DNA of 30,349 nt, from positions 1 to 30,349 of IMG/VR virus record IMGVR_UViG_3300020123_000431. One strand, written 5' to 3'. The notes under the pieces are model-generated. The model had not been told where the DNA came from. It saw nothing but the letters and a program-made list of their open reading frames with translations, and made no database searches. Made by a program: the position numbers and the translations under genes. Source of the stretch: a virus. Shown in pieces: positions 432-25,781 of the stretch (the stretch's first letter is position 1; each line of letters opens with the position of its first letter).

Positions 432-704
432 CTACTGCGCTTCAGGCGGGCAAGGGTCGAGGAAAAGGTAGTACTTCGATCCCTGTTCAAACGTTCCCAC
501 GATCGCTGGGTTCGTCACCGTGATCTCCAGCTCCCCGGTCGGCGTCGCACTTGAAAAGCTCTGGTCTTCCAGGCTTTCGCTGTGCGGGACCGCACTCAGC
601 TTGATCCGCTCCACATACTTTGGCGGGTCCTCGGGCTTCGCGCAGTTCCACGACATCCGGGAAACTTCCTTCACCTGAAACTTGCAAACGGTTCGGACAC
701 TCAC
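432..704 (-). CDS. Small conserved phage protein of unknown function
   Basis: This 90-residue protein on the minus strand starts with GTG at 704. Its layout (KLSAV near residue 37, a central TPTGELEITVTNPA segment, then F-x-x-GSKYYLFLDP near the end) resembles a family of about 80-90 residue phage proteins found near head-tail and tail genes, usually annotated as hypothetical. The family likeness is from memory and no search was run. There is no Shine-Dalgarno sequence before the GTG. Instead a perfect TATAAT lies 6 bases upstream (716 to 711 on the minus strand), so the transcript probably starts at the start codon. The gene is transcribed away from the tail tube gene and converges on the gene at 3-428. 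Confidence 0.7.
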   Translation of the reverse strand: MSVRTVCKFQVKEVSRMSWNCAKPEDPPKYVERIKLSAVPHSESLEDQSFSSATPTGELEITVTNPAIVGTFEQGSKYYLFLDPCPPEAQ

Positions 705-710
705 GAGGGG

Positions 711-739
711 ATTATAGGCGATCGGCTATCGATCGCGAA
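711..739 (-). promoter_or_regulatory. Leaderless promoter of the minus-strand gene at 704
   Basis: Read on the minus strand there is TATAAT (716-711), six bases (CCCCTC), then the GTG start codon at 704. A weak -35 match TTCGCG lies at 739-734 with a 17-base spacer. With the usual 6-8 base distance from -10 to transcription start, the RNA would begin at or within a base or two of the GTG. Confidence 0.6.
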
Positions 740-747
740 CGATCGAT
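728..747. promoter_or_regulatory. Perfect inverted repeat in divergent promoter region (possible operator)
   Basis: ATCGATCG (728-735) and CGATCGAT (740-747) are perfect reverse complements around the 4-base loop CGAA. The repeat lies between the minus-strand -10 (716-711) and the rightward -10-like TACAAT (771-776), overlapping the -35 of the minus promoter. This is a suitable place for a repressor or activator of both units, or it could form an RNA hairpin. No binding protein can be assigned. Confidence 0.4.
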
Positions 748-770
748 CCCGCCCGAAGTGCATCGCGGGT

Positions 771-776
771 TACAAT
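771..776 (+). promoter_or_regulatory. Candidate -10 element for the tail tube gene
   Basis: TACAAT (771-776) matches the sigma-70 -10 consensus at five of six bases and lies about 58 bases before the tail tube ATG at 835. No good -35 is present 16-18 bases upstream, so the site is weak or activator-dependent. A ribosome site AGAGGAG (818-824) follows in the leader. Confidence 0.3.
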
Positions 777-834
777 TGCGGGGGAGACGCGGGGGGCGCG
801 AGTCCCTCGAATCAGCGAGAGGAGAATCCCTGCG

Positions 835-1323
835 ATGTCCAAACTCTACGCCGCCCTCGGAATTCAACTGTGGGTCGGCGACGACAATTCGATTGAGACG
901 TTTTTTAAAGTGGCGCGCGTCGGTGACGTTTCGGGTCCGCAGGAAAAAGTGGACACGATCGACGCGACCACTCACCAGTCGGCCGAGAATCCGGACGGTC
1001 CCTACCGCGAGTTCATTCTCAGCCTGATCGACGCCGGCACCGCGACGTTTCCGATTATGCTCGACCCGGCCGAGGAGTCCCAGAACGAGGCGCCCACGAT
1101 CGTGGGAGTTCAGGCCGGCGGTCTGCGGTACCTGATGAAAAACCGTCTGCGCCGGAATATGCGCATGGTCTTCCCGTTCACCTCGCCCGAGGCCCGCGTC
1201 CGGATGTTCGGCGGCGTAACCGGCATGAACTTCGATGGCAAGGTCGCGGGGATGCTGATGTATACGGTCACGCTGAAGCTCTCGGGGCCCGCCACGCTCG
1301 AGGCTGGCTCGGGCAACAGCTAA
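835..1323 (+). CDS. Major tail tube protein
   Basis: This 162-residue protein has the layout of siphovirus tail tube subunits of the lambda gpV-like fold. It has an N-terminal strand region, a central segment around residues 25-60 with the usual V-x-DV-x-GP...ID-x-T-x-H pattern, a YREFI...LIDAGTATF stretch (residues 57-73), and a C-terminal strand pair rich in Thr/Val/Leu. Tube subunits polymerise as stacked hexamers around the tape measure and carry DNA during ejection. The ATG at 835 is preceded by AGAGGAG with about 10 bases spacing. It would normally be followed directly by the chaperone gene at 3096, but here a hairpin-rich stretch and a five-gene minus-strand operon intervene. Family is assigned from pattern and gene order, not from a search. 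Confidence 0.8.
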   Translation: MSKLYAALGIQLWVGDDNSIETFFKVARVGDVSGPQEKVDTIDATTHQSAENPDGPYREFILSLIDAGTATFPIMLDPAEESQNEAPTIVGVQAGGLRYLMKNRLRRNMRMVFPFTSPEARVRMFGGVTGMNFDGKVAGMLMYTVTLKLSGPATLEAGSGNS

Positions 1324-1364
1324 CCCCGCCCAGGGTCCCGCCCGCAGCGAATAGCGCGCGCGCT

Positions 1365-1431
1365 GGCTGCGCAGCCGCCCCTTCCAGGGGGGAACGTTCC
1401 TCCCGGAGCCCGGCGGCGCGCCCTGGCGCGC
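1365..1431. repeat. Cluster of three dyads downstream of the tail tube gene
   Basis: Between the tail tube stop (1323) and the minus-strand operon end (1505) lie a 12-base perfect palindrome GGCTGCGCAGCC (1365-1376), an 18-base palindrome with one G-T pair centred on GGAACGTTCC (1387-1404), and a GCGCG/CGCGC hairpin (1416-1431). None is followed by a T-run in the rightward direction. They may act together as a Rho-independent-like stop, an RNA-stabilising 3' end for the abundant tube mRNA, or a remnant of an insertion boundary. Confidence 0.5.
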
Positions 1432-1440
1432 GTGTTCCCC

Positions 1441-1480
1441 TCCCAAAACACAGGAAAGCCGCCCGGGGCCACCGGGCGGC
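1441..1480 (-). terminator. Intrinsic terminator of the minus-strand operon
   Basis: A perfect 9-bp stem GCCGCCCGG (1458-1466) / CCGGGCGGC (1472-1480) encloses a 5-base loop. Read leftward, it is followed by TTTCCTGTGTTTT (1457 down to 1445). It lies 24 bases past the stop of the last minus-strand gene (1505), where a leftward terminator is expected. The T-run is interrupted, so termination may be partial. Confidence 0.65.
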
Positions 1481-1504
1481 GTCCAAACCACCAACTTCTC
1501 GTTT

Positions 1505-1861
1505 TCAGCCCTGGTTTGAGGCCCGGGCGGGCCCGGGTGGGATATATCTAGCCCACCCTCGGTTCGGGAGGAAGTGGCCGTCGTCGTCTTTGCGCTTGGG
1601 AAACAGCCCGCCCCCCTTCTTGTGCTGGCCGAACTGAAACCGCCCCCGGCACTCGCCCGCCATGCACTGGAGCTCGTAGTAATCGAAGTCCTCGACGTGG
1701 CGGTGCTGGAAGCGGATCTCCGAAGACCCGCAGATCCCGCAGACGTTTTCGGCGTCGAAGACGTCCTGGAGCGCGGCGATCTGCGCGAAGAGCTCCTTGG
1801 GGGTTTCTCCCTGGACCTCGAACGTCAGGCGCCCGCCGGCGGCGCGGTAATGGGCTTTCAT
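1505..1861 (-). CDS. Zinc-ribbon-like conserved phage protein
   Basis: This 118-residue protein starts at ATG 1861, whose AAGG ribosome site lies 6 bases upstream; its start overlaps the stop of the previous gene (ATGA). It carries CGIC at residues 41-44 and a second Cys pair at 66 and 71, then FGQHKKGG and LFPKRKDD-G--LPNRGW. The run of motifs (Cys pair, I-R-F-x-H-R-x-V, YYELQC, FGQHK, LFPKR, GW) looks like a small conserved phage family often seen among early or accessory genes. Its function is unknown to me; the four cysteines suggest a structural zinc site. It is the last gene of the minus-strand operon and is followed by a terminator. Confidence 0.72.
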   Translation of the reverse strand: MKAHYRAAGGRLTFEVQGETPKELFAQIAALQDVFDAENVCGICGSSEIRFQHRHVEDFDYYELQCMAGECRGRFQFGQHKKGGGLFPKRKDDDGHFLPNRGWARYIPPGPARASNQG

Positions 1862-2103
1862 TTGACCTTCCGCTCGCACTCCCCGCGGGTGGGCATCGCC
1901 ACCTCGGCCTTGTGGCACCAGCAGGCGCAGTCCATCTTGCAGTTGGGCACGACAACACGCGGATTTCCACTGCGTCCGCAGTTGTCGACATGTTTTCGCT
2001 CCGCGCGGGTGGGCATCGATGTATCAGGCATGCGCGTCCGCCTTGTGGTCGCTACAGAAGTCGCCTTAGCCTGATCGATAGTCATAACAATCGCTCTGCT
2101 CAT
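1858..2103 (-). CDS. Small Cys-rich hypothetical protein with duplicated MPTR motif
   Basis: The 81-residue protein starts at ATG 2103, directly after the upstream gene's stop (TAAATG), with GGAAGG as ribosome site. It contains NCKMDCACWCHK near residue 54 and the short duplicated motif MPTRAE / MPTRGE (around residues 30 and 71). The duplication is visible in DNA as two nearly identical 19-base runs at about 1878-1896 and 2000-2018. The function is unknown. The clustered Cys/His suggests metal binding. The ATGA overlap with the next gene indicates translational coupling. Confidence 0.6.
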   Translation of the reverse strand: MSRAIVMTIDQAKATSVATTRRTRMPDTSMPTRAERKHVDNCGRSGNPRVVVPNCKMDCACWCHKAEVAMPTRGECERKVK

Positions 2104-2385
2104 TTAAACCTTCCCGTTCAGCGGGTCACAGATACAAGCTCTCAGTGTGGCGGCATGGCACTTAGAGCAGGCAGGGGGAAGATCCTTCATGCCGAGGATT
2201 CTACGAAGGCGATTGATCTCGGGAAGGCGAAGGCTCCCCGCAACGTAGATTTCTTCGCCATCGCAATCGTAGGGCGCATCCATCTCTCGCAAAGTTTCCA
2301 GCCAGACCATGACCATCGCCATGTCGTCTTTGAAGTTATACCGGCTAAGGCCAGCGCCGCGCCGTTGGTTGCTGAGGATCGCCAT
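2104..2385 (-). CDS. Hypothetical protein with C-terminal Cys cluster
   Basis: The 93-residue protein starts at ATG 2385, which has GGAG seven bases upstream and abuts the preceding stop codon. Residues 20-45 look helical and acidic; residues 50-67 (LRLPEINRLRRILGM) resemble a short amphipathic helix. The C-terminus has CSKC followed by CIC, a possible metal site. I do not recognise the family. The gene is the third in the minus-strand operon, with end-to-end TAAATG junctions on both sides. Expression is therefore tied to its neighbours. Confidence 0.6.
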   Translation of the reverse strand: MAILSNQRRGAGLSRYNFKDDMAMVMVWLETLREMDAPYDCDGEEIYVAGSLRLPEINRLRRILGMKDLPPACSKCHAATLRACICDPLNGKV

Positions 2386-2610
2386 TTACGACTCCATCCC
2401 CAGTTGATCCATCAGTTGCTTCCGACGCCACCAGAAGCCATTCAGGAAGCCGGACGGCTTGGGTTCGGACCACTTGGCGAAGTCCAGGATCTTCGTAACG
2501 TCGTGGTTCGTCATGATCCAGGTGCCATCAGGGTAGGTCAAGAGTTCTTCACGTGTGATCGTCTGTTTCGGGTTTACGACCGAAGGCGGGAGAGTCGGGG
2601 GCGCTGGCAT
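2386..2610 (-). CDS. Small hypothetical protein
   Basis: This 74-residue protein starts at ATG 2610, overlapping the upstream stop (TAATG). It begins with a proline-rich stretch and continues with EELLTYPDGTWIMTNHDV, a charged linker and FLNGFWWRRKQLMDQLG. The second half may form two helices. I do not recognise it. Its reality rests on the operon pattern: five consecutive minus-strand frames with overlapping or abutting start/stop codons. The opposite strand here holds no better-organised frame. Confidence 0.55.
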   Translation of the reverse strand: MPAPPTLPPSVVNPKQTITREELLTYPDGTWIMTNHDVTKILDFAKWSEPKPSGFLNGFWWRRKQLMDQLGMES

Positions 2611-2996
2611 TAGCGGCCCCCTTTCGCTTTGTAAGTCCGCTTCCCTTCGTCCGACTTCGACGAGGTGATCTTCAGGCCGTAGCGCTTGCCGGCGGTCGAG
2701 ATGAAGCCGCGAACGCTGTGCGCCTGCCACTTGGCGGCTTTCATGATCTGTTCGAGCGTCGCGCCTCGGGGCCGCGCGAGCAGCGCCAGGATTTTCGCGC
2801 GCTTCGTATCCTTGCGCGGGTCCGAACTCTTGGCGGCGCGCTTTGTGGCCGCGCGGTGGGTCTTCTTCTTCGCGGCGGTCTTGCGCGCTCCCGAGCGCTT
2901 CCGCTTGGGCTGAGTGAGCGCCGTCTTGAGTGCGGCGGCTTGGCTGGTCTGGGCCGCTTCGTGCGCGGCGGTTTCGGTTGCTGTTTCGGTATTCAT
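2610..2996 (-). CDS. DUF3489 protein with lysine/arginine-rich N-terminal tail
   Basis: From ATG 2996 the protein has 128 residues; an ATG at 3044 would add 16 residues but lacks a well-spaced ribosome site. Residues 1-60 are Ala/Thr/Lys/Arg-rich and disordered in appearance. Residues 62-125 carry KRAKILALLARPRGATLEQIMKA...WQAHSVRGFIS, the signature of DUF3489, a small winged-helix-like domain common in phages and proteobacteria. The basic tail plus the winged-helix-like fold suggests DNA binding, so this first gene of the minus-strand operon could be its regulator; this is inference. It is divergently arranged with the chaperone gene at 3096. Confidence 0.75.
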   Translation of the reverse strand: MNTETATETAAHEAAQTSQAAALKTALTQPKRKRSGARKTAAKKKTHRAATKRAAKSSDPRKDTKRAKILALLARPRGATLEQIMKAAKWQAHSVRGFISTAGKRYGLKITSSKSDEGKRTYKAKGGR

Positions 2997-3057
2997 TTGA
3001 TCCGTCCGTTTCTGCCGCCCATGTGGAGCGGCATTCAGATGCATACCTCTCGCGCGC

Positions 3058-3913: not shown

Positions 3914-6900
3914 GTCGAACTGTTGGCGATCTTCTCCTCCGTATCGGCGCGGACCAGGCCGCCTTCCAGACCCTGCGCGACCAGCTCCAGGGAGGCCGCG
4001 AGTCCGTCGCCGACTTCGTAAAAGCGACCGAAGCACTGTCACTCAACTTCGACCGCGCCTTTACCGCGCCGCTTGAACACGCAGCCGAAGCGCTGGTCGA
4101 GTTCGCGAACCAGTTTCAGGAAGCCTCGAACATCCTGATTCGGAACACGGGCGCGATGGGCGACGAGCTCGCCAAGCTCGACGAGAGCGTCCGCACGGTC
4201 CTGGGCCACGTCGACGAAACGAGTACTGAAGTGGCGACGACGGTCGCGCTGCTCGCGAGCCGGTTCTCACTTACGGGCGAAGAGCTCGACCACCTCTCAG
4301 AGAAAATGCTCGACTTCGCCCAGGCCACCGGCGGCGACGTCAACGGGACGGTTAGCGAGACGGTCAAGATCTTTAGCCAGTGGAGCGTCGCCACCGCGGA
4401 CCAGGTCGACAAGCTCAACGAGCTGATGCGGGTCGCGCAGGCCTCGGCGACGCCGGTGATCGAGATCGAGCAAAGCCTGGCCCAGTTCGGGCCGGCGCTC
4501 CGTGAAGCGGGCATTGGTTTCGACCAGGCCGCGCTCATGATCGGCAACCTGGCGAAATCGGGCGTCGACCTGGCGCCTACCCTCGGCGGGATCCAGAAGG
4601 CGCTGGGTGCGCTGGGCAAAGCCGGCCTCCAGGATCCGCTCGAAGGCCTGCAGCTGCTCGCCGACAAAATCAAGAACGCGACGAGCGAGGGCCAGGCGTT
4701 CGGGATCGGGGCCAGCGCTTTTGGGAAGGGCGCGGCTTCGATGGTAGAAGCCATCCGCTCCGGAAAGCTTTCCTTCGACGACTTCGCCGGCAGCCTGAAG
4801 CTGTCGGATAACGAGATCTCGAAGGTCGCCGACACCGTAAAGACGCTGGGGGAAACCTGGAACGAGGTTTGGAACAAGATCTCGCTCGCGTTCAAGCCGT
4901 TCGCGGATGCACTGGCGAGCGCGATACGCGATCTGTTGAAAGCGGCCGAACCGCTAATCGCCTGGGTGAAGGGTATCGGCGAGTCGTTTGCTCAGCTCGA
5001 CCCGGTTACTAAAAACATCATCATCGGCTTCGCTGCACTGATCGCCTCGATCGGGCCGCTCGCAGGGATTATTGCCGCCGCCGGCTTCGCGTTTGAGACG
5101 TTCATGGGCGTCATGGCGCCTTTCGCGGCCATCGTCTCGGGCCCGCTTCTCGTCCCCGGGCTGATCGCGATCGGCGTGGCGATTGCGGCATGGGCGATTT
5201 ACGAAGCGGTCACCAAGATTTCAAAGCTCCGGACGGAGCTGGAATCGCTTTACGACCTGCAGTCGCGCGGCGTGGTTGCTACGGCAGACCAGGCCGACCA
5301 GATCAAGCTTCTGACGGGGGTGATCGACAAATACAACTCTTCGCTCGATCGCGCGAAGTCCGGCGCGAAGCAAATCGAAGTGTCGCCCTTTACTCCCGGC
5401 GGCCAGGCGCTCACTCCCACCGAGTACTTGAAGGCGCTCCAGCAGGCGGTCGACGGAATCGGCGGCGTGAGCGCGGGCCTCAAGGGAATGAAAGCCGCAA
5501 TCGCGGACGTCGATACGAGCTTTGCCGCGAGCGGGTCGAAGATCAATCTCTCGATCGACACGATCGGCGCGACCCAGACCCGCGCTGGCGACGCGGCCAG
5601 GAAGTGGAGCGCGGCAACCAGCGGGGCCGTCGACCAGGTTCTTGAGAAATTCTCCGCGATGAAGCAGGTCGAGGAGCAAATCAAAAAGCTGCAGGAGGTC
5701 GTGGGCGCGGAGTCGCTCCCCATTAAGAAGCTGCAGCTCGAAGACCTGCAGCGCCGCGCGTTTGCTCCCACCCAGCAGGACGCCGATAACCAGTGGCTCG
5801 CCTATTTCGACGAGGTGATCAAACTCAACCGCGCGGCGGCCATCCAGTCGAGCGACGACACCCTCGAGGCGGCGGCGAACCTCCGGACGAAGCTGAAGGA
5901 AGCCGGCATGGACACGCAGCAGGCGTTCTCGCTGTTGGGTGTCACATCCCAGGCCGATATCGATCGTCAGGTCGAGGAAGTGAACGTCGCCTACGCGCGG
6001 ATCTACCAAAGCCAGAGCGCGACCGATGGCGATCGCACCCGCGCGCTGATCGCGAATCGCGAGAAGGTAATCGCGCTGTGGCGCCAGACCGGCCAGCAGA
6101 TCGCTGACGACGACATCCTGACGCTCGAAAAGATGAAGGCAGAGTGGGCGGCCGCGACGCAGGATATCGGGCGGGCGCTCTCGACCCTGGGCATTTCGTC
6201 GGTCGACCAGGTCGAAAACAACTTGAGCGTGGTCTCCGCGGCGCTCGATAAGATCCGGGAATCGGTCGAAGCCGGGAAAGCCACGCAGCTCGACGCGGAC
6301 AATGCCGAGATCGCCTCGCTTCAGAAGAAGGCCCAGCAATTTGCGGCGATCGGCAAGGCCATGTCCGACGAGGAAACCGCGCGCCTCGCCCAGCTGCTCG
6401 CCCAGCGCCAGCAGGCGACCTTCACGACGCAGAGCGCGTTCCAGTTTTTCGGGATCCCGTCACAGCAGGATTTCGATAACACGATCGGCACGATCGAAGC
6501 GGCTTACCGGAAGATCGCGGAATCGGGCGTCGCATCCGAACAGCAGTTGAACGCGGCGCGCGCGGGCGAGCTCCAGAAGATGATCGACGAGTACAGGAAG
6601 GCTGGCAGAACCGTTACCGACGACATGCTCACGGAGTGGAAGGATCGAACCGCGGCGGCGCAGCGCGCGGCGCTCGATATCGACCAAGCCTTCAAGATCC
6701 TGGGGACGGTCTCGACGACTGACGCGACCAACCAGATTAAGCTGCTCGACGCGGCGTTCGACAAGCTCGCAAACGACGCCTCGGTTTCTGCCGGCCAGCT
6801 CCAGGCGGCGCTCGTGAGCAAACTGCAGGGGACAATCGACGAGCTGCGCAAGGCAGGCACGGCAGCGTCCGACGAACTCGTGCACCAGCTCGACCAGGCC

Positions 6901-8478
6901 AAGGTGAAGCTCCAGCAGGTCACGATGAATATCGACGATGCCTACAAGCAGCTGGGCGTCCAGTCCCTTCAATCCATTCGCGACTCGGCCGAGCTCGCAA
7001 AGACCGCGCTCGACAAGATCAACGCGGACACGAAGGCGTCGCTCTACGATCGGCTGCAGGCCCAGATCGCCTATAACGAAGACCAGTTCAAACTCCAGGT
7101 CGCAAGCGGCCAGCAGGTCGACGAGTTTCTGCGCGCGCAAAACACGATCGCGAAGCAACGGATCCAGGAGGCGCTCAGCGACCAGCAGAATATTTATCTG
7201 GCGTTCGCGCAGGTGATCAAAAACGTGTATGGCGCGATCCAGAACGATATCGCGGACGTGATTCTGGGCGCGAAGACGATGGGCCAGGCGTTCCAGGATA
7301 TCGCTCAGCAGATCGAGAAGGCGCTCGTCCAGTTCGTGATCAACAAGCTGCTTCTGACGCAGAAGACGCTCGACCAGCTCACGGACACGCTGCTCGGGTT
7401 CCTGAAGGACCTCGTCGGAGACTGGTCCACCTCGGGGGGGCTGCCGAATATTCCCGGCGGTCCTGGTCCGGGTGGCGGCGGTGGCGGTGGAACGGGCGGC
7501 GGTACCGGCGGTGGCGGGATCGGAGGCGCGACGGGCGGTGGGCTGCTCGGCAAGCTGTCCGACCTCACCAACGTTCTGAGCCTGATCGTCAACGTGATCT
7601 CGTCGATCGTCCAGGGGATCCAGGGCGCGCGCCAGATCACGCTCCTTGGGCGGATAGAGGAGTCCACGCGGCGCGCGGACATCGCGCTCGAACAGGGTCC
7701 CGAATCGATTTCGGAAAAGATCAAGGCTTACCTGCCCATGCTGCAGGGGCTGCTCGATTACATGTGGAACTTCCAGTCGACGATCCTGACCGGGATGTCG
7801 AGCGACCTCGATGGGATCGCCTCGGACGTAAACGCCAGCTACTGGAAGCTGGTCGATATCCTCGCGGCGATTCGCGCGGGCGGCAAGTCCGGCGGGTCGG
7901 CCTCGGCTGATAACCAGCCGCTCCCGGGTGCGCTGATCCCGGTGATCCCGCCCGATGTGTCCTCTGAATTTAAGTCGACGATGACGGCGTGGTCGAACGC
8001 TTACAGCGATATGGCGCAGTCTGCCAATAAGCTCTCCGAAGCGATCCCGGTCGCCCTCGGCGCAGTGTACTCGGTCGCGGCATCGACCACTCAGGCGGCA
8101 ACCGCGGTCACGGAGGCCGTCGCCGCGATCGAGACCGTTTCTTCGGTGGCGGGCGTCATGGCGCTCGCCGAGGCGCTGGGACCGTCCGCGCCGGGGCCAT
8201 CCGGGACGCCTTCCCTCGGCCCGCTCGCGCTCGCTGAGCCTATCGTTGCGCCCGCGGTGACCGCCTATATCGAGCAGTCGCAGGGCGGCCCGCTCGCTGT
8301 GCCCTCGCCCTACGGTTTGCGGGCCGTTCCTGAGATCGCCACGCCCGGTGGTTCGGTCGTGATACAAACAACAGTGAGCCAACCGGTCGTGCTGGACAAT
8401 CCGACGCTCCGCAATCTGATGTCGGAAATGCAGCGAATGTTCAACGACTCGCTGCGCCAGGCTGGTTTGATGCGATAG
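3910..8478 (+). CDS. Tape measure protein with five tandem ~84-residue repeats
   Basis: This 1522-residue protein sets tail length and is ejected with the DNA. Residues 120-270 match the pattern of the phage minor tail/TP901 tape-measure core (conserved 'S-x-x-FGP-LREAGI-FDQAALMIG-LA--G' arrangement). Residues 369-440 are strongly hydrophobic, with likely membrane-spanning helices. Residues 672-1095 contain five tandem repeats, each beginning A-F/L/Y-x-x-LG/FG (residues 672, 756, 843, 927, 1011; spacing 84, 87, 84, 84). A Gly/Pro-rich hinge follows at about 1183-1210. At about 0.15 nm per residue the tail would be roughly 230 nm. The GTG start overlaps the previous stop by four bases. Confidence 0.93.
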   Translation: MSRTVGDLLLRIGADQAAFQTLRDQLQGGRESVADFVKATEALSLNFDRAFTAPLEHAAEALVEFANQFQEASNILIRNTGAMGDELAKLDESVRTVLGHVDETSTEVATTVALLASRFSLTGEELDHLSEKMLDFAQATGGDVNGTVSETVKIFSQWSVATADQVDKLNELMRVAQASATPVIEIEQSLAQFGPALREAGIGFDQAALMIGNLAKSGVDLAPTLGGIQKALGALGKAGLQDPLEGLQLLADKIKNATSEGQAFGIGASAFGKGAASMVEAIRSGKLSFDDFAGSLKLSDNEISKVADTVKTLGETWNEVWNKISLAFKPFADALASAIRDLLKAAEPLIAWVKGIGESFAQLDPVTKNIIIGFAALIASIGPLAGIIAAAGFAFETFMGVMAPFAAIVSGPLLVPGLIAIGVAIAAWAIYEAVTKISKLRTELESLYDLQSRGVVATADQADQIKLLTGVIDKYNSSLDRAKSGAKQIEVSPFTPGGQALTPTEYLKALQQAVDGIGGVSAGLKGMKAAIADVDTSFAASGSKINLSIDTIGATQTRAGDAARKWSAATSGAVDQVLEKFSAMKQVEEQIKKLQEVVGAESLPIKKLQLEDLQRRAFAPTQQDADNQWLAYFDEVIKLNRAAAIQSSDDTLEAAANLRTKLKEAGMDTQQAFSLLGVTSQADIDRQVEEVNVAYARIYQSQSATDGDRTRALIANREKVIALWRQTGQQIADDDILTLEKMKAEWAAATQDIGRALSTLGISSVDQVENNLSVVSAALDKIRESVEAGKATQLDADNAEIASLQKKAQQFAAIGKAMSDEETARLAQLLAQRQQATFTTQSAFQFFGIPSQQDFDNTIGTIEAAYRKIAESGVASEQQLNAARAGELQKMIDEYRKAGRTVTDDMLTEWKDRTAAAQRAALDIDQAFKILGTVSTTDATNQIKLLDAAFDKLANDASVSAGQLQAALVSKLQGTIDELRKAGTAASDELVHQLDQAKVKLQQVTMNIDDAYKQLGVQSLQSIRDSAELAKTALDKINADTKASLYDRLQAQIAYNEDQFKLQVASGQQVDEFLRAQNTIAKQRIQEALSDQQNIYLAFAQVIKNVYGAIQNDIADVILGAKTMGQAFQDIAQQIEKALVQFVINKLLLTQKTLDQLTDTLLGFLKDLVGDWSTSGGLPNIPGGPGPGGGGGGGTGGGTGGGGIGGATGGGLLGKLSDLTNVLSLIVNVISSIVQGIQGARQITLLGRIEESTRRADIALEQGPESISEKIKAYLPMLQGLLDYMWNFQSTILTGMSSDLDGIASDVNASYWKLVDILAAIRAGGKSGGSASADNQPLPGALIPVIPPDVSSEFKSTMTAWSNAYSDMAQSANKLSEAIPVALGAVYSVAASTTQAATAVTEAVAAIETVSSVAGVMALAEALGPSAPGPSGTPSLGPLALAEPIVAPAVTAYIEQSQGGPLAVPSPYGLRAVPEIATPGGSVVIQTTVSQPVVLDNPTLRNLMSEMQRMFNDSLRQAGLMR
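5923..7192 (+). repeat. Five tandem protein repeats encoded in the tape measure gene
   Basis: Repeat units start at 5923, 6175, 6436, 6688 and 6940 (252, 261, 252 and 252 bases apart). Each encodes A-[FLY]-x-x-[LF]-G-x-x-S, a helix with [AY]-x-[KR]-I or similar, then a Leu/Gln helix, and (in most copies) [TA]-x-[SD]-[DE] before the next unit. DNA identity is low, so the repeats are old and selected at protein level. One unit would account for about 12-13 nm of tail. Confidence 0.8.
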
Positions 8479-15861: not shown

Positions 15862-16197
15862 ATGCCCAGGCGGTACGAGTGGGAGGCAGCAGCACGGCGC
15901 CGGCAGCGCTGCGACTTCTGCAAGAACGACGCGATACTGCCGCGCTGTCCGAAGTGCGGGATCGATTACATCGAGGCGCACGCGGACCAGGCTCGGCAGC
16001 GCCGGCACGCCGAGATATGGCGGCGCAGCCAAGACATCGTGCAGTTTTGGGCGATCATACTCGGTCTGTCGTTGATCTTCGCCGGCGGGCCAGGCGCGGG
16101 CAGCCGTCGAATAGCGTGCGGGTTTTTCCTGGTGTCGGCGGCGATTGCGGCGTTTCAGTTCATTGTCGATCGGCGCAACCGGAGGCGGAAGACGTGA
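15862..16197 (+). CDS. Zinc-ribbon membrane protein
   Basis: This 111-residue protein (ATG 15862) combines an N-terminal zinc ribbon with CxxC at 17/20 and CxxC at 29/32, a basic helical linker (residues 40-57), and two hydrophobic segments at about 61-75 and 83-102 separated by a Gly-rich turn. The end is strongly basic (DRRNRRRKT), which predicts that both termini face the cytoplasm. This zinc-ribbon-plus-two-TM layout is common in bacterial proteins of unknown function. It lies in an operon of small proteins and overlaps the next gene by four bases. Confidence 0.6.
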   Translation: MPRRYEWEAAARRRQRCDFCKNDAILPRCPKCGIDYIEAHADQARQRRHAEIWRRSQDIVQFWAIILGLSLIFAGGPGAGSRRIACGFFLVSAAIAAFQFIVDRRNRRRKT

Positions 16198-17192: not shown

Positions 17193-17327
17193 ATGATTGC
17201 TCTTCTTCTCTTGGCGGCGGTCGTCTGGGCGTTCGCGATTCGCGAGATCGCCATCGTCTCGCGCCGCACCCGTATGAATCGGTTGATCGCGCGCTTCCCG
17301 CTGCAGATCGGGGGGCCCCGTGGGTAA
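17193..17327 (+). CDS. 44-residue membrane protein
   Basis: ATG 17193 is preceded by AAAGG at seven bases and yields 44 residues: hydrophobic MIALLLLAAVVWAFAI (residues 1-16), then a basic tail with SRRTRMNRLIARF. It looks like a single N-terminal membrane anchor with a positively charged cytoplasmic tail. Its stop overlaps the first codons of the ParB-like gene. No function can be given. Confidence 0.55.
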   Translation: MIALLLLAAVVWAFAIREIAIVSRRTRMNRLIARFPLQIGGPRG

Positions 17328-18978
17328 GCGCGGTCTTCAGTCGCCCGCCTCGATCCCGATCGAACAGACGCCGCCGGCGTTTGAATCGATCCCCCTGGAG
17401 TTCATCCAGGAATCCGACTTCAACCCGCGAAAGCACTTCGCGGAAGCCAAGCTGCGCGAGCTCGAAAGCTCGATCCGGCTGCGCGGCATCATCCAGCCGA
17501 TCGTCGTTCGCTCCCACCCGAAGCTCCCCGCGCGCTACGAGGTGGTCGCCGGCGCGCGGCGCTTCCGCGCGGCGAAGGCGGTCGGCCTAGAGAAAGTGCC
17601 GGCGATCATCCGCGTTTTGTCCGACGTCGACGTGCTCGAAATCATGGTCATCGAAAACGGGCAACGCGACGACCTTCATCCGCTTGAGGAAGCGGACGGC
17701 TTCGGGCAACTGATGGAGGTCGGCAAATATGACGCCCAGACCATCGCGCAGAAGGTCGGCCACGACGAAACCTACGTCTACCGGCGCCTCGCGCTGCGCA
17801 AGCTGATCCCCAAGGTGCGCGAGTCCTTCGAGGGCGGCGGGATCCAGCTCGCCCACGCACAGCTGATCGCCCGCCTCGCCCCGCCCGACCAGCAGCTGGC
17901 TTTTGAAATGGCGTTTCACGAGGACCGCGCCTGGGACGAGAAGAAAAAGCGGGTGTCCCTCTCGCGCCGCGTGATCCCGGCCCGCGAGCTCGAACGCGAG
18001 ATCGATAGCCGTATCATGCGCGAGCTTTCGACCGCTCCCTGGGACCTCGAGGATCCGGCGCTTCTGGAGCAAGCCGGCCCCTGCACGGCGTGTCCCAAGC
18101 GATCGTCTGCGCAGGCGGCGCTCTTTGACAAGGGCGGCCAATCGAGCGATCGCTGTCTCGATAGCCACTGCTGGTCGCTGAAGCTCGCGGCGCTCTTCAG
18201 CACGAAGATCGTCACGATCCAGAACGTGACCGGGAAAACACCGGTTCGCGTCGCCGAGTCGTGGGTGTCAAGCGACGCCGATCGCTCGCTGCAGAAAGAC
18301 CACAAGCCGCAGCTCCAGCATCACGAATATGAAACCGTCCTCAAGGGGAAGGAGTGCGGCGCGATGGAGCCGGCGCTCGTTGTGCACGGGGAAAACGTCG
18401 GCCAGCAGATCACGATTTGCCGGTCGAAGACGTGCAAGGTCCACCGCGGGCGTTCGTCGGGTCTCCAGAAGTCGGCGGGCGATCGCGCCCGTGAAAAAGC
18501 GCAGCGCGCCAAGGTGGACCTCGAGCGCCGCATCTGCGCGCGCATCTTCTACGCGATCGGATCTAAAGCGAACTTCCCGCCCCGCCGGAAGGAGCTTGAC
18601 CAGGTCTTCGAGCGTGTGCTCGATCTGAAGAACCACGACGAGCTCCGCTTCCTCTCGATCGACGTCTACAAGCTCGAAGCTCCGAAGACGAAACAGTTCG
18701 GGCCCGACTATGGCGGCGCGCTGCGCGCGCGCTACAAGAAGGCAGCTGACGCTGAGGCGTTCCGGATGTTGGTAGCGGTCGCGTTCGCGACGCCGCCTTT
18801 CTCCTTTGCGACCAAGCGCGCGGAGTGGATCACTGCCGCTGCTCGCGCGTTCAAAGTCGACGTTCGCGCGATCACCACGCACGAGACCAAGCTCTCAAAG
18901 CCTGCTGCTGGCACAAAGCCGGCGCCGGCGAAAACCAAAGCTCGCGGCCGCGCTGCGAAGAAGCGGGGTGCCAAGTGA
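17320..18978 (+). CDS. ParB/Spo0J-family protein without a ParA partner
   Basis: The 552-residue protein starts at GTG 17320 after a G-rich stretch. Residues 24-115 form the ParB N-terminal (CTPase/nuclease-like) domain with NPRK (35-38), the GARRFRAAKAVG motif (78-89) and IENGQRDDLHPLEEA (111-125). A helix-turn-helix follows at about 137-162 (AQTIAQKVGHDETYVYRRL). Residues 255-284 hold C-x2-C...C-x4-C, a probable zinc site found in a subset of plasmid/phage ParB-like proteins. The tail is Lys/Ala-rich. No ParA ATPase is in the window, so roles in plasmid-like maintenance, DNA binding or transcription are all open. It overlaps the next gene by four bases. Confidence 0.8.
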   Translation: MGKRGLQSPASIPIEQTPPAFESIPLEFIQESDFNPRKHFAEAKLRELESSIRLRGIIQPIVVRSHPKLPARYEVVAGARRFRAAKAVGLEKVPAIIRVLSDVDVLEIMVIENGQRDDLHPLEEADGFGQLMEVGKYDAQTIAQKVGHDETYVYRRLALRKLIPKVRESFEGGGIQLAHAQLIARLAPPDQQLAFEMAFHEDRAWDEKKKRVSLSRRVIPARELEREIDSRIMRELSTAPWDLEDPALLEQAGPCTACPKRSSAQAALFDKGGQSSDRCLDSHCWSLKLAALFSTKIVTIQNVTGKTPVRVAESWVSSDADRSLQKDHKPQLQHHEYETVLKGKECGAMEPALVVHGENVGQQITICRSKTCKVHRGRSSGLQKSAGDRAREKAQRAKVDLERRICARIFYAIGSKANFPPRRKELDQVFERVLDLKNHDELRFLSIDVYKLEAPKTKQFGPDYGGALRARYKKAADAEAFRMLVAVAFATPPFSFATKRAEWITAAARAFKVDVRAITTHETKLSKPAAGTKPAPAKTKARGRAAKKRGAK

Positions 18979-19181
18979 TCTGGCATCTGTTCGCGCTCGC
19001 TCTTTCGTTCGCGTTTGGTTCGGTCGCGGTCCACGACTTGAAGCAGGGCTGGCACTACTCTGCGCTGTTCTATGGCCTGCTGGCGATCGACATCTTCGTG
19101 CTTGAGGTCACAGAGAAGCCAGGCCGACCGCGAGTCCCTGGCGTGTTCGTTCCCCGCAGAAAGGCTGGTGGATGGCGATGA
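18975..19181 (+). CDS. Small two-helix membrane protein
   Basis: GTG 18975 overlaps the parB-like stop (GTGA). The 68 residues include a hydrophobic N-terminal helix (IWHLFALALSFAFGSVAV) and a second (YSALFYGLLAIDIFVLEV, residues 28-45), then a basic Pro/Arg-rich tail. The predicted topology is a hairpin with both ends in the cytoplasm. The function is unknown. Confidence 0.55.
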   Translation: MIWHLFALALSFAFGSVAVHDLKQGWHYSALFYGLLAIDIFVLEVTEKPGRPRVPGVFVPRRKAGGWR

Positions 19182-20029
19182 CCCTTTCACGTCCGCTCAT
19201 TCTTGAAAAGTCCCGCACCAAGGACGTCTCGCTCACTCCGACCGAGCGCTTCTTTAAGCCGGTGATCGTGATCGGCGCGCCCTGCTCGCGCGCCGATGCG
19301 GAATTGATCGGCTGCGAGTGGCTGTTCGACGCGCAGGGAAACGCGCACCACTTCGAGGGTTCGGTCAAAGCGACTGCCGAGCTTTCAACGGCAGCCGTGA
19401 CGCTCCGCGGCGTCACCCTCTCGACCGACTTCAAAGCGGAGAAGATCGTACACTTCCGCCTGGCGCGGGTCGAGAAAGTGGGCCTCGAGGTACAGATGCG
19501 GATCCACCTCACCGAGCACAGCCCTGAGGACCTGGTCCCGCTGCTTGCGTTTCTTTCGACGCTCAACAAGGAGGAGTTCGTCCTTGAGATCACTTCGTCG
19601 CAGATGCAGCTCGAACCGGCGAAGCCGGTAAAGGACACAATATCGAAGCGGAAGCCGACCCGCGACGCGGATGGGATGCCGGTGCCGATGGAATCCGGCG
19701 AGTACGATGCGAACCTCGCGACTGGCGTCCCCTTCTCGAACAAGCACGTGGTCGCAACCGTCGCAAGCCTCGAGGTGCGCGGCGGCTATATCGCGGGCTG
19801 GCACTTCCGGGTGACCGGGAAGGTCGCGCGCGCGTCGGGCGAACCGCTTTCGGTTAAGAGCGAGGTCTACGCCTCGGAATCGGAAGCGATCGAGCACGCG
19901 GCGCTTGCGGCGCATGCGTTCGGGCTGGGGATCCTTCCCGACGCGACCGGGCCCACGGAGGCCTCGGTGCGCGCAGCAGTTGAATGGCTGGCTGAGCGAT
20001 GCCCGAAGCCGGCGGGGGTGACCCAGTGA
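19172..20029 (+). CDS. Conserved-looking hypothetical protein
   Basis: The 285-residue protein starts at ATG 19172 (AAAGG seven bases upstream); ATG 19178 is an alternative that would give the usual four-base overlap. Residues 60-140 look beta-rich (repeated strands such as VTLRGVTLSTDF, KIVHFRLARVEKVGLEVQMRIHL). A charged linker follows, then another beta region (VVATVASLEVRGGYIAGWHFRVTGKV, about 190-215) and a helical C-terminus. I do not recognise a family or catalytic motif. Position between ParB-like and RusA-like genes would fit a DNA-metabolism accessory factor, but that is only context. Confidence 0.6.
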   Translation: MAMTLSRPLILEKSRTKDVSLTPTERFFKPVIVIGAPCSRADAELIGCEWLFDAQGNAHHFEGSVKATAELSTAAVTLRGVTLSTDFKAEKIVHFRLARVEKVGLEVQMRIHLTEHSPEDLVPLLAFLSTLNKEEFVLEITSSQMQLEPAKPVKDTISKRKPTRDADGMPVPMESGEYDANLATGVPFSNKHVVATVASLEVRGGYIAGWHFRVTGKVARASGEPLSVKSEVYASESEAIEHAALAAHAFGLGILPDATGPTEASVRAAVEWLAERCPKPAGVTQ

Positions 20030-21351: not shown

Positions 21352-21912
21352 ATGCTTTCCGAAGTCCCCTCGTTCATGGTCCCGGAGAGCGAAGGCCTCG
21401 GCCCCCACATGCTGCTGGTCCACCTCGAGTTCCCGATGGAGCTGCCATCGAAGAAAAACAACCTGCAGCGCCGTGGCGGGAAAGCGCGCGGCGGGCGCCT
21501 CATGTATTCCGAGGAGGTTCGCTCGGCGATGCGCACCGCGGAGCTGCTCTCTAAGGTCCAGTGGGGCGCGCGCCTGCCGGTTGAGCACCCGATGGTGTTC
21601 GTCAAGATGGCGATCGCGAACCCGGCCAAGGATCCGGACGGGATCTGGACTACGCTCGTCGACGCGCTCGTCAAGGGTGGCGTTTTGCGCGACGATTCGG
21701 TGCGCGAGTTCAACGGACCGAAGTACTTCGCGCCGGTCGCCCTTTGTGAACCAGGGCACGAGCTGGTGGTCGTCGAGCTCGTGTTCCCCGATCCGGATCC
21801 TGTAACGGGCGAGCTCCACGAATGCGAGCTTCCGCGTGTCGATCCCTTCACCCTGCGTAGAATGAAAGTGACTGGGCGGGAGCCGGCGGGCCGCAGGAGG
21901 TCACCAAAGTGA
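21352..21912 (+). CDS. rusA: RusA-like Holliday junction resolvase
   Basis: The 186-residue protein carries LPSKKNNLQRRGG (residues 31-43) and DPDGIWTTLVDALVKGGVLRDDSVREF (94-120). The spaced acidic residues Asp94, Asp96, Asp104 and Asp114/115 match the metal-binding set of RusA endonucleases ('D-x-DN...D-L...V-DD'). RusA dimers cut Holliday junctions and help phages resolve recombination or branched replication intermediates before packaging. Gly97 replaces the usual Asn after the second Asp, a mild deviation. The N-terminus is longer than usual, and ATG 21409 (Met20) is a plausible alternative start. It is followed by the zinc-ribbon gene in an overlapping arrangement. Confidence 0.75.
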   Translation: MLSEVPSFMVPESEGLGPHMLLVHLEFPMELPSKKNNLQRRGGKARGGRLMYSEEVRSAMRTAELLSKVQWGARLPVEHPMVFVKMAIANPAKDPDGIWTTLVDALVKGGVLRDDSVREFNGPKYFAPVALCEPGHELVVVELVFPDPDPVTGELHECELPRVDPFTLRRMKVTGREPAGRRRSPK

Positions 21913-22370
21913 GAAATCCGCGCTGCCACATATGCAGCCTGGTCCACCCGCCTTTCACGAGCTGCGCCGAGGCGCGCCTCGCTGCGCTGCAGTTCATCCT
22001 TTCGCACGCTGGCCGCGAAGACACGTGCCGCGCGTGCGGTGCAAAGCTCTACTGGACGATTCGCGTCGACGGAACCTATCGCGCCTACAACGAGCTCGGG
22101 CGCCCCCACATTTCCGGGAGCACGTGTCCCTCGCCCGCCGAAGCCGAGCGGGTCGAGGATTATAATCCCCCGGTCGAACAGCGCATCCGTTCGCTCCTGC
22201 TCGCGATCGCGCCGGCAAGCCGCTGCCAGTGCGGAACGCCCATTTTCTTCGTCAAGTACGGGACGGGCAAGAGCGCGCCCTACACGATAGCCGGCTTGGT
22301 CCATTTCGCGGACTGCCCAGCCGCCCTCCGGTTTCGACGGCCCCGCGTCCCCGTGGGAGCCGGTGGATGA
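21909..22370 (+). CDS. Zinc-ribbon hypothetical protein
   Basis: GTG 21909 has GGAGG seven bases upstream and overlaps the RusA-like stop. The 153-residue protein has CHIC at residues 6-9, CRAC at 40-43 with nearby strands (KLYWTIRVDGTYRAYNELG), a later Cys-containing CP motif (about 74), CQC near 106, and a final H-F-A-D-C. These could form one or two zinc ribbons. The repeated 'C-x-C-G-x-x-[IL]-[YF]...P-Y' arrangement suggests two copies of a ribbon fold, at 38-75 and 104-138. It is the last gene of the long operon and is followed by the putative origin. Confidence 0.6.
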   Translation: MRNPRCHICSLVHPPFTSCAEARLAALQFILSHAGREDTCRACGAKLYWTIRVDGTYRAYNELGRPHISGSTCPSPAEAERVEDYNPPVEQRIRSLLLAIAPASRCQCGTPIFFVKYGTGKSAPYTIAGLVHFADCPAALRFRRPRVPVGAGG

Positions 22371-22439
22371 GCTGTGCATAAGTCTGTGACTTTCCAGGGG
22401 ACATCCTGCGGGAAACTGCGGGTGCCAGTGGAAGTTTTT

Positions 22440-22477
22440 CGGGCAGCCCTGGTTTTGCACAGCCCGCCCTTTTTTTT
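22440..22477 (+). terminator. Possible terminator of the accessory operon
   Basis: A short GC arm CGGGC (22440-22444) can pair with GCCCG (22462-22466), or GGGC (22441-22444) with GCCC (22466-22469), followed at once by eight T residues (22470-22477). The stem is weak for its loop size but the T-run is one of only two such runs in the window. Confidence 0.4.
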
Positions 22478-22531
22478 CCACCGCATCCGCCCACAGCATA
22501 AAGCTCTGACACCACGCTCGTTAGGTCTGTT

Positions 22532-22560
22532 TTCCACGTTTCCACAGGGCTTCATATTAT
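22532..22560 (+). promoter_or_regulatory. Candidate promoter for the 22593 gene group
   Basis: TTCCAC (22532-22537), a 17-base spacer and TATTAT (22555-22560) form a weak sigma-70-like promoter inside the DnaA-box cluster. A second -10-like TAGAGT (22578-22583) lies nine bases before ATG 22593 and would make a leaderless RNA. It is the same hexamer as at the operon promoter 14870-14875. Confidence 0.3.
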
Positions 22561-22592
22561 TCTTGTCAGAGGAGAGGTAGAGTTCTAAGACT

Positions 22593-22787
22593 ATGAAGAA
22601 AAGACACTTAAAACGCGAGCTGGCCAAATGCCCCGTCACCCTCGCAGCAATATCGCTTTCCTCCGAACGGGCCGCAAACGAGCTGGCCGCCCTCGGGCGC
22701 GCTATGGCGCGGTTTGGGCGCGCGCTCCGGAGGGTGGCCCCTTCCACCGACCGTGTACCGGGAAACGGCACAGGCCGCGCGCTATGA
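22593..22787 (+). CDS. Small basic hypothetical protein
   Basis: The 64-residue protein (ATG 22593) is highly basic (MKKRHLKRELAK at the start; many Arg later) with an Ala-rich helix in the middle. Its stop overlaps the next gene's ATG (ATGA at 22784-22787), the main argument that it is translated. The ribosome site GGAGAGG (22571-22577) is rather far (15 bases), so a leaderless start is an alternative. The function is unknown; it is small enough to be a nucleic-acid-binding peptide. Confidence 0.45.
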   Translation: MKKRHLKRELAKCPVTLAAISLSSERAANELAALGRAMARFGRALRRVAPSTDRVPGNGTGRAL

Positions 22788-23150: not shown

Positions 23151-23531
23151 ATGCTTCGCGCGCTCGCCGGCGGAACACTCGTTTTCTTCGGATGCTCCGT
23201 CGCGGCCGAGCTCCCGGCGTGGGTTGAACCGGTCGCCCAGGCGATCGCACTGGTCGAGGGCTGGCGAGATCCTGCGAGCCTCGTGCGTCGCGAGCACAAT
23301 CCGGGTGCGCTCGCATTTGCCGGCCAGGAAGGTGCCACGTGCGGCATCCGCGGTTTTGCTCGGTTCGCTTCGGACGAGCTCGGCTGGCGCGCGCTCCGGA
23401 AAGACCTCGAGCTGAAGATTGCGCGCGGCATGACGGTCGAGGCGATCGCGCGAGCTCGCGCGGGCCGCACCGACGACGTCGAAGCCTACGTGCGAATCTT
23501 GGTGAGTGCTGCGAAAGGACCCCGGCGGTGA
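23151..23531 (+). CDS. Exported lysozyme-like protein (putative endolysin or tail-associated murein hydrolase)
   Basis: This 126-residue protein has an N-terminal signal-like segment (LRALAGGTLVFFGCSVAAEL, residues 2-21) with a Cys at 15 that could be a lipobox-like position. The rest carries 'A-I-A-L-V-E-G-W...H-N-P-G-A-L...F-A-S-D-E-L-G-W-R-A-L-R-K-D-L-E-L-K-I', with Glu36 in the E-G-[WF] motif and N-P-G at 50-52. This is the arrangement of small lysozyme-like/transglycosylase-like phage proteins resembling the P5-type family. Glu36 would be the catalytic acid. It probably degrades peptidoglycan at the periplasmic side. Its small size and signal segment fit a signal-arrest-type endolysin, but this is inference. 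Confidence 0.55.
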   Translation: MLRALAGGTLVFFGCSVAAELPAWVEPVAQAIALVEGWRDPASLVRREHNPGALAFAGQEGATCGIRGFARFASDELGWRALRKDLELKIARGMTVEAIARARAGRTDDVEAYVRILVSAAKGPRR

Positions 23532-24830: not shown

Positions 24831-24987
24831 CGCTTCTTAAGAAAGCCGGTCCTTCCCCGCGCTCTAATTGACGCCTTCAAATCCGGAGCGCGCAGACTGG
24901 CTTTCAACGATCTGTATCCTCCGTCACTCCGGGCCGTTGGACGCGCGCGCTTCACGAGGGCGCACCCGTTCCCTCGGCCCCTTTTTT
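24831..24987 (+). ncRNA. Candidate structured small RNA (unknown)
   Basis: This non-coding stretch starts just after a terminator and ends in its own. An 11-bp stem GAAAGCCGGTC (24841-24851) / GACTGGCTTTC (24895-24905) with one G-U pair encloses a second 7-bp stem CGCGCTC (24858-24864) / GAGCGCG (24886-24892). A five-bp stem (24905-24909/24935-24939) is also possible downstream. It closes with CGAGGG (24955-24960) / CCCTCG (24971-24976), then GCCCC and TTTTTT (24982-24987). No protein start or ribosome site is visible on this strand. Candidate -10s upstream are poor. A packaging or cos element is an alternative to an RNA. Confidence 0.45.
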
Positions 24988-24990
24988 ATT
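24955..24990 (+). terminator. Intrinsic terminator ending the structured stretch
   Basis: CGAGGG (24955-24960) pairs with CCCTCG (24971-24976) over six positions with a 10-base loop; after GCCCC a run of six T (24982-24987) follows. The T-run overlaps the stop codon of the convergent minus-strand gene. Confidence 0.6.
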
Positions 24991-25489
24991 CGCTGGCTGT
25001 GACGACGTGCAACCTGGTGTTACCGGCTGCAACCATTCGGGCGACCGCCTCGCGCTGGACCCGGTCACCGATCACGATGCAGCCGTCGCTTGCCGTGTGG
25101 TCGTGGCTTGCGGTGTCGGCGTGAAGCCAGAAGCCACTGCGCCCGAACATTACGTTCGATGGATCCGGCACAAGCGGCATCGCGAACGGCCCCAGGTGCG
25201 GGTGGTTCACGGCGCGCCCGATCGTATACCAGCCGACCGGAAGCGGCCCGACCCGTTTCATTGCAGTCGCCGCCGGATTGTTCAGACCAACACCGTGACC
25301 GGAGTAGCAGCTGCAGTAGGAGAGGCCGGCCAGGTACAAGTCCCCGGTCTCGATTTCATACAGCCACTGTTCTGGTTCGGTTGCGGGAAGCATTTGGGAT
25401 TCAAAAGTAACACGGCCCGCCAGCTTCCACAGAAACGCTGCCCGTTGTAGAATCGGGTCCGGAGACACCAGCTTGACCATACAAGCCAT
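24986..25489 (-). CDS. DUF2778 L,D-transpeptidase-like protein
   Basis: The minus-strand protein has 167 residues from ATG 25489, or 164 from ATG 25480, which has GGATGG just upstream. It shows the DUF2778 layout: Y-E-I-E-T-G-D-L-Y at 44-52, YSGHGVGLNNP (62-72), GPLPVGWYTIG (81-91), FGRSGFWLHAD (115-125) and ASDGCIVIGDR (133-143). His123 and Cys137 would be the catalytic pair. DUF2778 proteins include Tlde1-type effectors that attack or exchange peptidoglycan crosslinks. In a phage, this is likely a lysis or entry factor acting on the cell wall. No signal peptide is evident, so it would need a holin or virion delivery. It overlaps the divergent gene at 25473 by up to 17 bases. Confidence 0.72.
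   Translation of the reverse strand: MACMVKLVSPDPILQRAAFLWKLAGRVTFESQMLPATEPEQWLYEIETGDLYLAGLSYCSCYSGHGVGLNNPAATAMKRVGPLPVGWYTIGRAVNHPHLGPFAMPLVPDPSNVMFGRSGFWLHADTASHDHTASDGCIVIGDRVQREAVARMVAAGNTRLHVVTASE
25425..25453 (+). promoter_or_regulatory. Candidate promoter of the terminase-side operon
   Basis: TTCCAC (25425-25430), a 17-base spacer and TAGAAT (25448-25453) read rightward inside the 5' end of the minus-strand gene, 19 bases before the TTG at 25473. The -35 hexamer and spacing are the same as in the candidate promoter at 22532. Confidence 0.35.
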
Positions 25490-25781
25490 CCGGAGTAGTC
25501 ACACCTGCCGGCCCCGCACCGAGGACCCGCGACGCGCAGCAGCGCGCCAGGCGCTTATAGCCGAACTCTTTCGGTGGAAACTGCGGATCGACGGAGCGCT
25601 TCGCGTCCTGGCTGTGCACGACGCGGCCACCGCGAAGGACGAGCGCGCCCTAGAACTTCTGCAGGAGCTCGGGCGGCGGGCCCGCAACGCCGCGGACCGT
25701 GCGTTCGTTATGGCGCGGGTGGCACCAACACCCGGCCTCGAGCCACCCGACGCCACACGGCGCGCGGGGTGGCCACAGTGA
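25473..25781 (+). CDS. Hypothetical helical protein
   Basis: The frame is open from a TTG at 25473 with GGAG eight bases upstream, giving 102 residues. The middle is helical (RQALIAELFRWKLRIDGALRVLAVHDAATAKDERALELLQELGRRARNAADRAFV) with charged ends and a Pro-rich tail. It starts within the 5' end of the divergent minus-strand gene, and its stop overlaps a GTG. No family recognised. The TTG start is tentative. The frame precedes the HNH gene in the packaging region. Confidence 0.45.
   Translation: MTIQAIRSSHTCRPRTEDPRRAAARQALIAELFRWKLRIDGALRVLAVHDAATAKDERALELLQELGRRARNAADRAFVMARVAPTPGLEPPDATRRAGWPQ

Follow-up and report, generated by a model that had tools for sequence, protein, structure and literature searches.

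How does a phage start to copy its genome when none of its genes is recognised as a replication initiator? The question is raised by a 222-bp gap between genes (positions 22371-22592) of a viral contig. A preliminary description of this DNA had proposed that the gap holds a cluster of DnaA boxes from which the phage initiates through the DnaA protein of its host. Our analysis supports this proposal by the synteny of the boxes in a related phage, by the absence of recognised replication genes and by an arrangement of box pair, GC block and trio-like triplets of the type found in Acidobacteriota. We consider it probable that the gap is a phage replication origin that works like a small bacterial oriC and depends on host DnaA. 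As a rule, phages pair their origin with an initiator of their own.

Genomic context of the gap

The window (the whole stretch of DNA analysed) comprises a complete IMG/VR record (30,349 bp) and lacks end repeats. Its genes run from the tail module through the early genes (ParB, RusA and a Zn-ribbon protein) to the gap, and from there through lysis-like, HNH, ParB-methyltransferase and terminase genes to the start of the portal gene. The gap is bounded by the stop of the Zn-ribbon gene (21909-22370, plus strand) at 22370 and by the next plausible start at 22593. The open reading frames that overlap it are mechanical, in agreement with its earlier description as non-coding. Its GC content is 52%, compared with about 63% for the window. 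The early genes upstream, all on the plus strand, include those for a ParB-family protein with ParB_N and HTH_ParB domains (17320-18978), a conserved early protein (19172-20029, hereafter the 19172 protein) and a RusA-like Holliday junction resolvase (21352-21912; phrog_34, E 4e-4). Rfam and tRNA searches returned nothing.

Density of DnaA boxes

The gap contains two perfect DnaA boxes and three with one mismatch, exactly as first listed. The perfect boxes are TTATGCACA on the minus strand (22373-22381) and TTTTGCACA on the plus strand (22453-22461). The one-mismatch boxes, all on the plus strand, are TTTTCCACC (22474-22482) and a tandem pair formed by TTTTCCACG (22530-22538) and GTTTCCACA (22538-22546), which are offset by 8 bp and overlap by 1 bp. 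Elsewhere in the window there are no perfect boxes and eight scattered boxes with one mismatch.

We assessed this density against several backgrounds, and the cluster in this non-coding DNA is above chance in each. Dinucleotide shuffles of the 222 bp had a mean of 0.5 boxes (≤1 mismatch) against the five observed, a number reached in 0 of 2000 shuffles. For perfect boxes the mean was 0.04 against the two observed; the earlier expectation of about 0.01 is right for equal base use and becomes 0.04 once the real composition is allowed for. When the entire window was shuffled 100 times, no 222-bp stretch had more than three boxes (≤1 mismatch). Among 120 phage and prophage loci with GC ≥55% (1.69 Mb), a box density score ≥7 was found only for the window, for its relative G001 (see below) and for L100, a locus whose parB is preceded by box pairs, and the next best score was 4. 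T-rich words might also have clustered by chance in a gap that is non-coding and of lower GC, which the local GC of 52% and a poly-T tract that helps one of the words would favor. Set against the shuffles and the seven boxes that G001 has in its syntenic gap, the probability of this explanation is close to negligible.

The 15-base direct repeat of the preliminary description does exist in two copies on the plus strand (22376-22390 and 22496-22510), but it is weak, with 12 out of 15 bases identical.

Conservation in a related phage

Only one relative was found that shares the whole gene module. This contig, G001 (IMGVR_UViG_3300036806_000183; 38,041 bp), encodes a terminase 62% identical and a ParB 38% identical to those of the window. 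Homologues of ParB, the 19172 protein, RusA (37% identity over 115 aa), the Zn-ribbon protein and the product of 23151-23531 are encoded in identical order, with the Zn-ribbon gene at the matching place directly upstream of the gap. The gene at 23151-23531 (plus strand; 62% over 52 aa) is the first one downstream with a G001 homologue and thus establishes that the gap is syntenic. In its own gap, which extends from the Zn-ribbon gene to the gene that follows, G001 has seven boxes (≤1 mismatch), of which two are perfect copies of TTTTGCACA. The conservation of the boxes in relatives, proposed earlier as a check, is therefore borne out for the position of the cluster in the one relative known to carry the module.

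The two gaps have mostly diverged. The best-kept blocks are the tandem boxes (GTTTTCCACGTTTCCACAGG vs GTTATCCACTTTTGCACAGG), in which the first box of the window aligns with TTATCCACT in G001, and the word GTTCTAAGA; GTTWTCCACNTTTNCACAGG is also conserved. Boxes and position that are kept while the flanks diverge look like protein-binding sites under selection, as judged from this pairwise alignment.

Other searches for relatives returned little. No match was obtained in a distant DNA search of phages with the window or when the Zn-ribbon and 19172 proteins were searched against phages; the sole relative of the 19172 protein is in G001 and in the near-twin contig of G001. Scans with the Zn-ribbon protein or ParB alone found no relatives, and a terminase scan of genome contigs gave no confirmed match. 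The ParB scan of genome contigs retrieved 77 loci, in which the module of the window is absent beyond ParB-like, methyltransferase and HNH domains.

The G001 gap has features of its own. A 17-nt inverted repeat (L086:1880-1950; GTGCAACCCAGTGGAAA / TTTCCACGGGCTTGCAC, 15/17) carries box-like words in each arm, and a hairpin near L086 1830 resembles an intrinsic terminator. A weaker form of the inverted repeat is present in the window (CCAGTGGAA ... TTTTCCACC). We set aside the reading of these inverted repeats as an ABC-primosome-like hairpin, for which support was thin. The predicted RNA structure of the window gap is no better than that of shuffles (z -0.48), and that of the G001 gap gives a weak signal relative to shuffles. 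Outside the gap, four small genes on the minus strand lie within the tail operon of the window (432-3044), one of them with DUF3489. Two of the four have plus-strand homologues in the region of G001 that follows its gap (L086:4628-4954 and 6788-6985), so the block seems to have been moved or inverted.

A candidate unwinding site at the 3' end of the gap

The basal unwinding system of bacterial origins consists of one or two DnaA boxes, a spacer of ≤16 bp (with a peak at 10-13 bp) and at least three DnaA-trios, 3'-NAN-5', onto which DnaA extends (PMC8287927). The 3' end of the gap has these elements in this order: the overlapping boxes TTTTCCACG/GTTTCCACA are followed by a 4-bp GC clamp and by five trio-like triplets at 12 bp from the first box. 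The 12-bp spacer TTTCCACAGGGC (22539-22550, plus strand), whose length falls within the peak reported for bacterial origins (PMC8287927), holds the second box and ends in the GC block GGGC. The triplets TTC ATA TTA TTC TTG (22551-22565, plus strand) read 3'-NAN-5' on the complement and form an AT-rich candidate unwinding site. A run of five such triplets has a probability of 0.009 in composition-matched shuffles. As a control, we inspected the 20 tandem pairs present in 1.65 Mb of phage DNA, and the longest trio run after any of them was three. G001 retains the boxes and the GC spacer; only two of its first three triplets are trio-like, and it thus fails the strict rule of three in a row.

Because the gap resembles a bacterial origin down to the opening site, we suggest that the phage borrows the initiator protein of its host. 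Host DnaA would bind the box cluster, nucleate on the tandem pair (22530-22546) and spread from there over the GC-rich block GGGC to reach the trio-like triplets (22551-22565) in single-stranded form, pulling apart the strands of the AT-rich DNA. The host helicase and replisome would then be loaded, so that a phage initiator, helicase and primase would be unneeded.

The order of these elements bears on two other roles for the boxes. The first is the regulation of transcription: DnaA or an activator encoded by the phage would act on a promoter within the gap, at the early/lysis-late junction, and replication would not start there. A sigma-70-like promoter (TTTCCA-18-TATTAT, 9/12) does overlap the tandem boxes, the early/late junction is the usual site of late promoters, and near ori-lambda both transcription stimulated by DnaA and sites resembling DnaA boxes are known (PMC3985674). 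However, a promoter needs neither five to seven boxes over >150 bp nor the succession of boxes, GC block and trios, and the -10-like TATTAT is without a counterpart in the aligned G001 gap. We consider this role unlikely. The second is that of a sink, in which the cluster would starve the host chromosome of initiator and would not be an origin. A multicopy phage genome with five boxes could titrate DnaA, and a prophage protein is known that binds DnaA and inhibits initiation (PMC4776307), but a sink has no need for a GC spacer, trio-like triplets and a fixed order beside the tandem pair, and we regard it as very improbable.

Resemblance to origins of Acidobacteriota

The best cellular relatives of the ParB protein are in Acidobacteriota genomes in 10 out of 11 cases (~30-37% identity, at loci that may be prophages), and on this taxonomic lead we gathered dnaA regions from Acidobacteriota. 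The great majority of the boxes in these regions read TTTTCCACA, and position 3 is T in 150 out of 171, whereas 31 dnaA regions of Burkholderiales use TTATCCACA, with A at position 3 in 50 out of 55. The boxes of the two phages are of the acidobacterial kind, T occupying this position in four out of five boxes of the window and six out of seven of G001. The commonest box-to-trio spacer in the Acidobacteriota dnaA regions is 12 bp. Two acidobacterial origins illustrate the likeness: one (L207) reads TTTTCCACA-TTTCCACAGGCA-CTACTACTACTACTA and the other (L203) TTTTCCACG-TTTCCGCACCGC-CTACTGTTACTG, and the window spacer is identical to theirs at 10/12 and 9/12 positions, respectively.

We built a profile of the oriC core from seven Terriglobia genomes and searched it over all the phage and prophage loci that had been fetched. 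The G001 gap ranked first and the tandem pair of the window fifth, with E-values of 0.3 and 21, which are non-significant alone. When only the flanks were shuffled, 0 of 4000 sequences reached the score of G001, indicating that bases outside the boxes contribute to it; for the window, 443 of 4000 scored as well and bases outside the boxes add nothing. The comparison is post hoc, as the resemblance was noticed first, and the E-values are modest; we therefore treat it as supporting and not decisive.

We infer that the host of the phage belongs to the Acidobacteriota. The best terminase relatives are 43% identical in the sampled Acidobacteriota and 40% in the sampled Burkholderiales, values that do not settle the host. 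The origin core itself may help to assign hosts, because the box flavor (TTTT vs TTAT) differs between phyla.

Replication genes and the missing segment

Pfam and PHROGs recognise ParB, a RusA-like resolvase, methyltransferases, HNH and terminases in the window, and no polymerase, helicase, primase or initiator in its early region. The same four functions were likewise unrecognised among the scanned G001 proteins. About ten of the early proteins could not be assigned to a known family, and one of them may be an initiator that escaped recognition. The best candidate for this role is possibly the 19172 protein; its structure model has a pLDDT of 33, and a PDB sequence search with it gave chance matches only.

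The preliminary description had also considered that an initiator and origin might be encoded in the part of the phage missing from the contig. A contig from another metagenome (L004) is protein-identical to the window over the end of the terminase and the start of the portal, and continues with portal, protease, capsid and connector genes. The circular gene order of G001 is the same as that of L004 and the window. From this continuation and order, the unsequenced part probably consists of head genes, estimated at 5-6 kb. The missing genes thus appear structural, and the roughly ten unassigned early proteins remain as a possible source of an initiator. The suggested kinship with phage-plasmids, on the other hand, is not borne out: ParB is present, and neither ParA nor Rep was found with Pfam and PHROGs.

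If the 19172 protein or another phage protein were an initiator, the repeats in the gap might be its iterons and resemble DnaA boxes by chance. The 19172 protein, which has a homologue in G001, lacks an assigned fold, and in L088, a ParB relative, an O-like HTH gene harbors three iterons of 22 bp, GAAAAGGTGCAAAACACGACAG, that include TTTTGCACC. The repeats of the window, however, are short words at irregular distances and in either orientation: regular direct repeats of ~17-22 bp are absent, and there are only the one 15-base pair (80%) and shorter words. No O-like initiator gene was found, no adjacent gene belongs to a phage or plasmid initiator family by Pfam and PHROGs, and the words and their spacing match acidobacterial oriC. 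We judge iterons to be quite improbable, and retain the reading of the repeats as DnaA boxes of an oriC-like origin.

Strength and implications of the assignment

The expected extremum of cumulative GC skew does not appear at the gap. The minimum is at 25758 in the window, and the detrended minimum in G001 is at 15976, also away from the site. Because skew in small phages follows the coding strand, this mismatch is weak evidence. A phrog_24118 gene on the minus strand, perhaps for a lysis enzyme (24986-25489), lies near the minimum of the window amid plus-strand late genes. A further counterpoint is that three of the five boxes are one base off the consensus. There is no dnaA or dnaN next to the gap, and dnaA is absent from the window. 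As this adjacency is typical of a chromosomal oriC and not required of a borrowed origin, we propose that the gap works like an oriC, not that it is a chromosomal oriC, and we do not claim that it is an oriC by descent. The sequences themselves show the cluster of boxes, its kept position in G001, and a layout and wording that Acidobacteriota origins share. We infer DnaA binding, unwinding and helicase loading at the gap, in an acidobacterial host and as the sole origin.

If this is true, a phage with the origin-opening module of its host would be tied to the cell cycle of its host and to the host's control of DnaA, and would not need replication genes. It would also be a naturally occurring minimal system for testing which elements of oriC are enough to initiate replication. 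Phages and origins of Acidobacteriota have hardly been studied.

Similar cores in other viral contigs

We scanned IMG/VR with the core shared by the window and G001, TTWTCCACNTTTSCACAGG. It occurs at 53 loci versus about five expected, a rough estimate that assumes ~45 Gb of sequence. Many of the 53 loci lie in clusters of 5-17 boxes. The fetched stretches of the 53 loci contain no recognisable dnaA, and contamination by chromosomal origins was excluded solely on this basis. Several loci are clearly phage: two (L341 and L374) adjoin terminase and portal genes, one (L373) is downstream of RusA and a methyltransferase, and one (L365) is accompanied by a terminase small subunit and a ParB-like gene. 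Two more phage loci (L345 and L376) have CTACTACTACTA, with the textbook TTATCCACTTTTCCACAGGGAACTACTACTACTAC. The core is also found in marine low-GC groups of viral contigs. Three or more trios are present in only some of the 53 loci, and about eleven high-GC matches look like chance.

As the core falls within the box clusters of several unrelated phages, it may mark a recurrent, little-described class of phage origin; we regard this recurrence of oriC-type origins in phages as a lead and not a result. The general proposition that initiator-less phages carry a stand-alone host-type opening module (DnaA box pair, GC clamp and DnaA-trios) and replicate wholly via host DnaA is tentative, and we place it slightly below an even chance.

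Some individual loci are of interest in themselves. In a phage contig of 57% GC (L341:885-1220, and likewise L374), 17 boxes (≤1 mismatch) are packed into ~330 bp that separate an HNH-like gene from the terminase genes. A 38-kb contig, either phage or plasmid (L334:3240-3740, minus strand), has two divergent box-pair cores within 300 bp, and one of the two cores precedes five ACT/CTA-type trios. Many low-GC prophages (L045-L079) share a conserved cluster of five to seven TCATTCACA words ~3 kb upstream of the terminase (e.g., L045:6889-7157).

Comparison with known origins

Plasmid origins of the P1 and mini-F type combine host DnaA boxes with AT-rich DNA. The window resembles them in having DnaA boxes, AT-rich DNA and an encoded ParB, and differs from them in having no Rep and no iterons; ParA was not found.

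The gap is also like lambda ori and other O-type phage origins, including those of L088, L100 and L101, in being located near early genes, and DnaA boxes are known near ori-lambda (PMC3985674). In L100 and L101, pairs of TTATCCACA lie upstream of ParB, inside apparent O-type genes. In L088, the iterons within the O-like gene (L088:1182-1248) are ~0.9 kb upstream of a ParB of the same family as that of the window, and would constitute a lambda-type origin in a ParB relative. Unlike these origins, the window has neither an initiator gene nor regular iterons. For Pseudomonas phage PseuGes_254, an AT-rich region with DnaA boxes was predicted by Ori-Finder as the phage origin (PMC11512268). Unlike the window, this phage encodes its own primase and polymerase, and the passages of its report that we consulted describe neither a box-pair/trio core nor a test of conservation. 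A phage origin with the full module is not described in the open-access literature that we searched.

Finally, we compared the gap to bacterial oriC with a basal unwinding system (PMC8287927), especially the oriC between dnaA and dnaN of Acidobacteriota. The site of the window differs in that it is in a phage and not beside dnaA, has only five boxes and has trios of the form TTC/ATA/TTA instead of CTA, with an incomplete trio run in G001. It is like the acidobacterial oriC in its box word TTTTNCAC, in its tandem pair at an 8-bp offset, in its 12-bp spacer with a GC-rich end, in the run of trio-like triplets that follows and in the extra boxes upstream.
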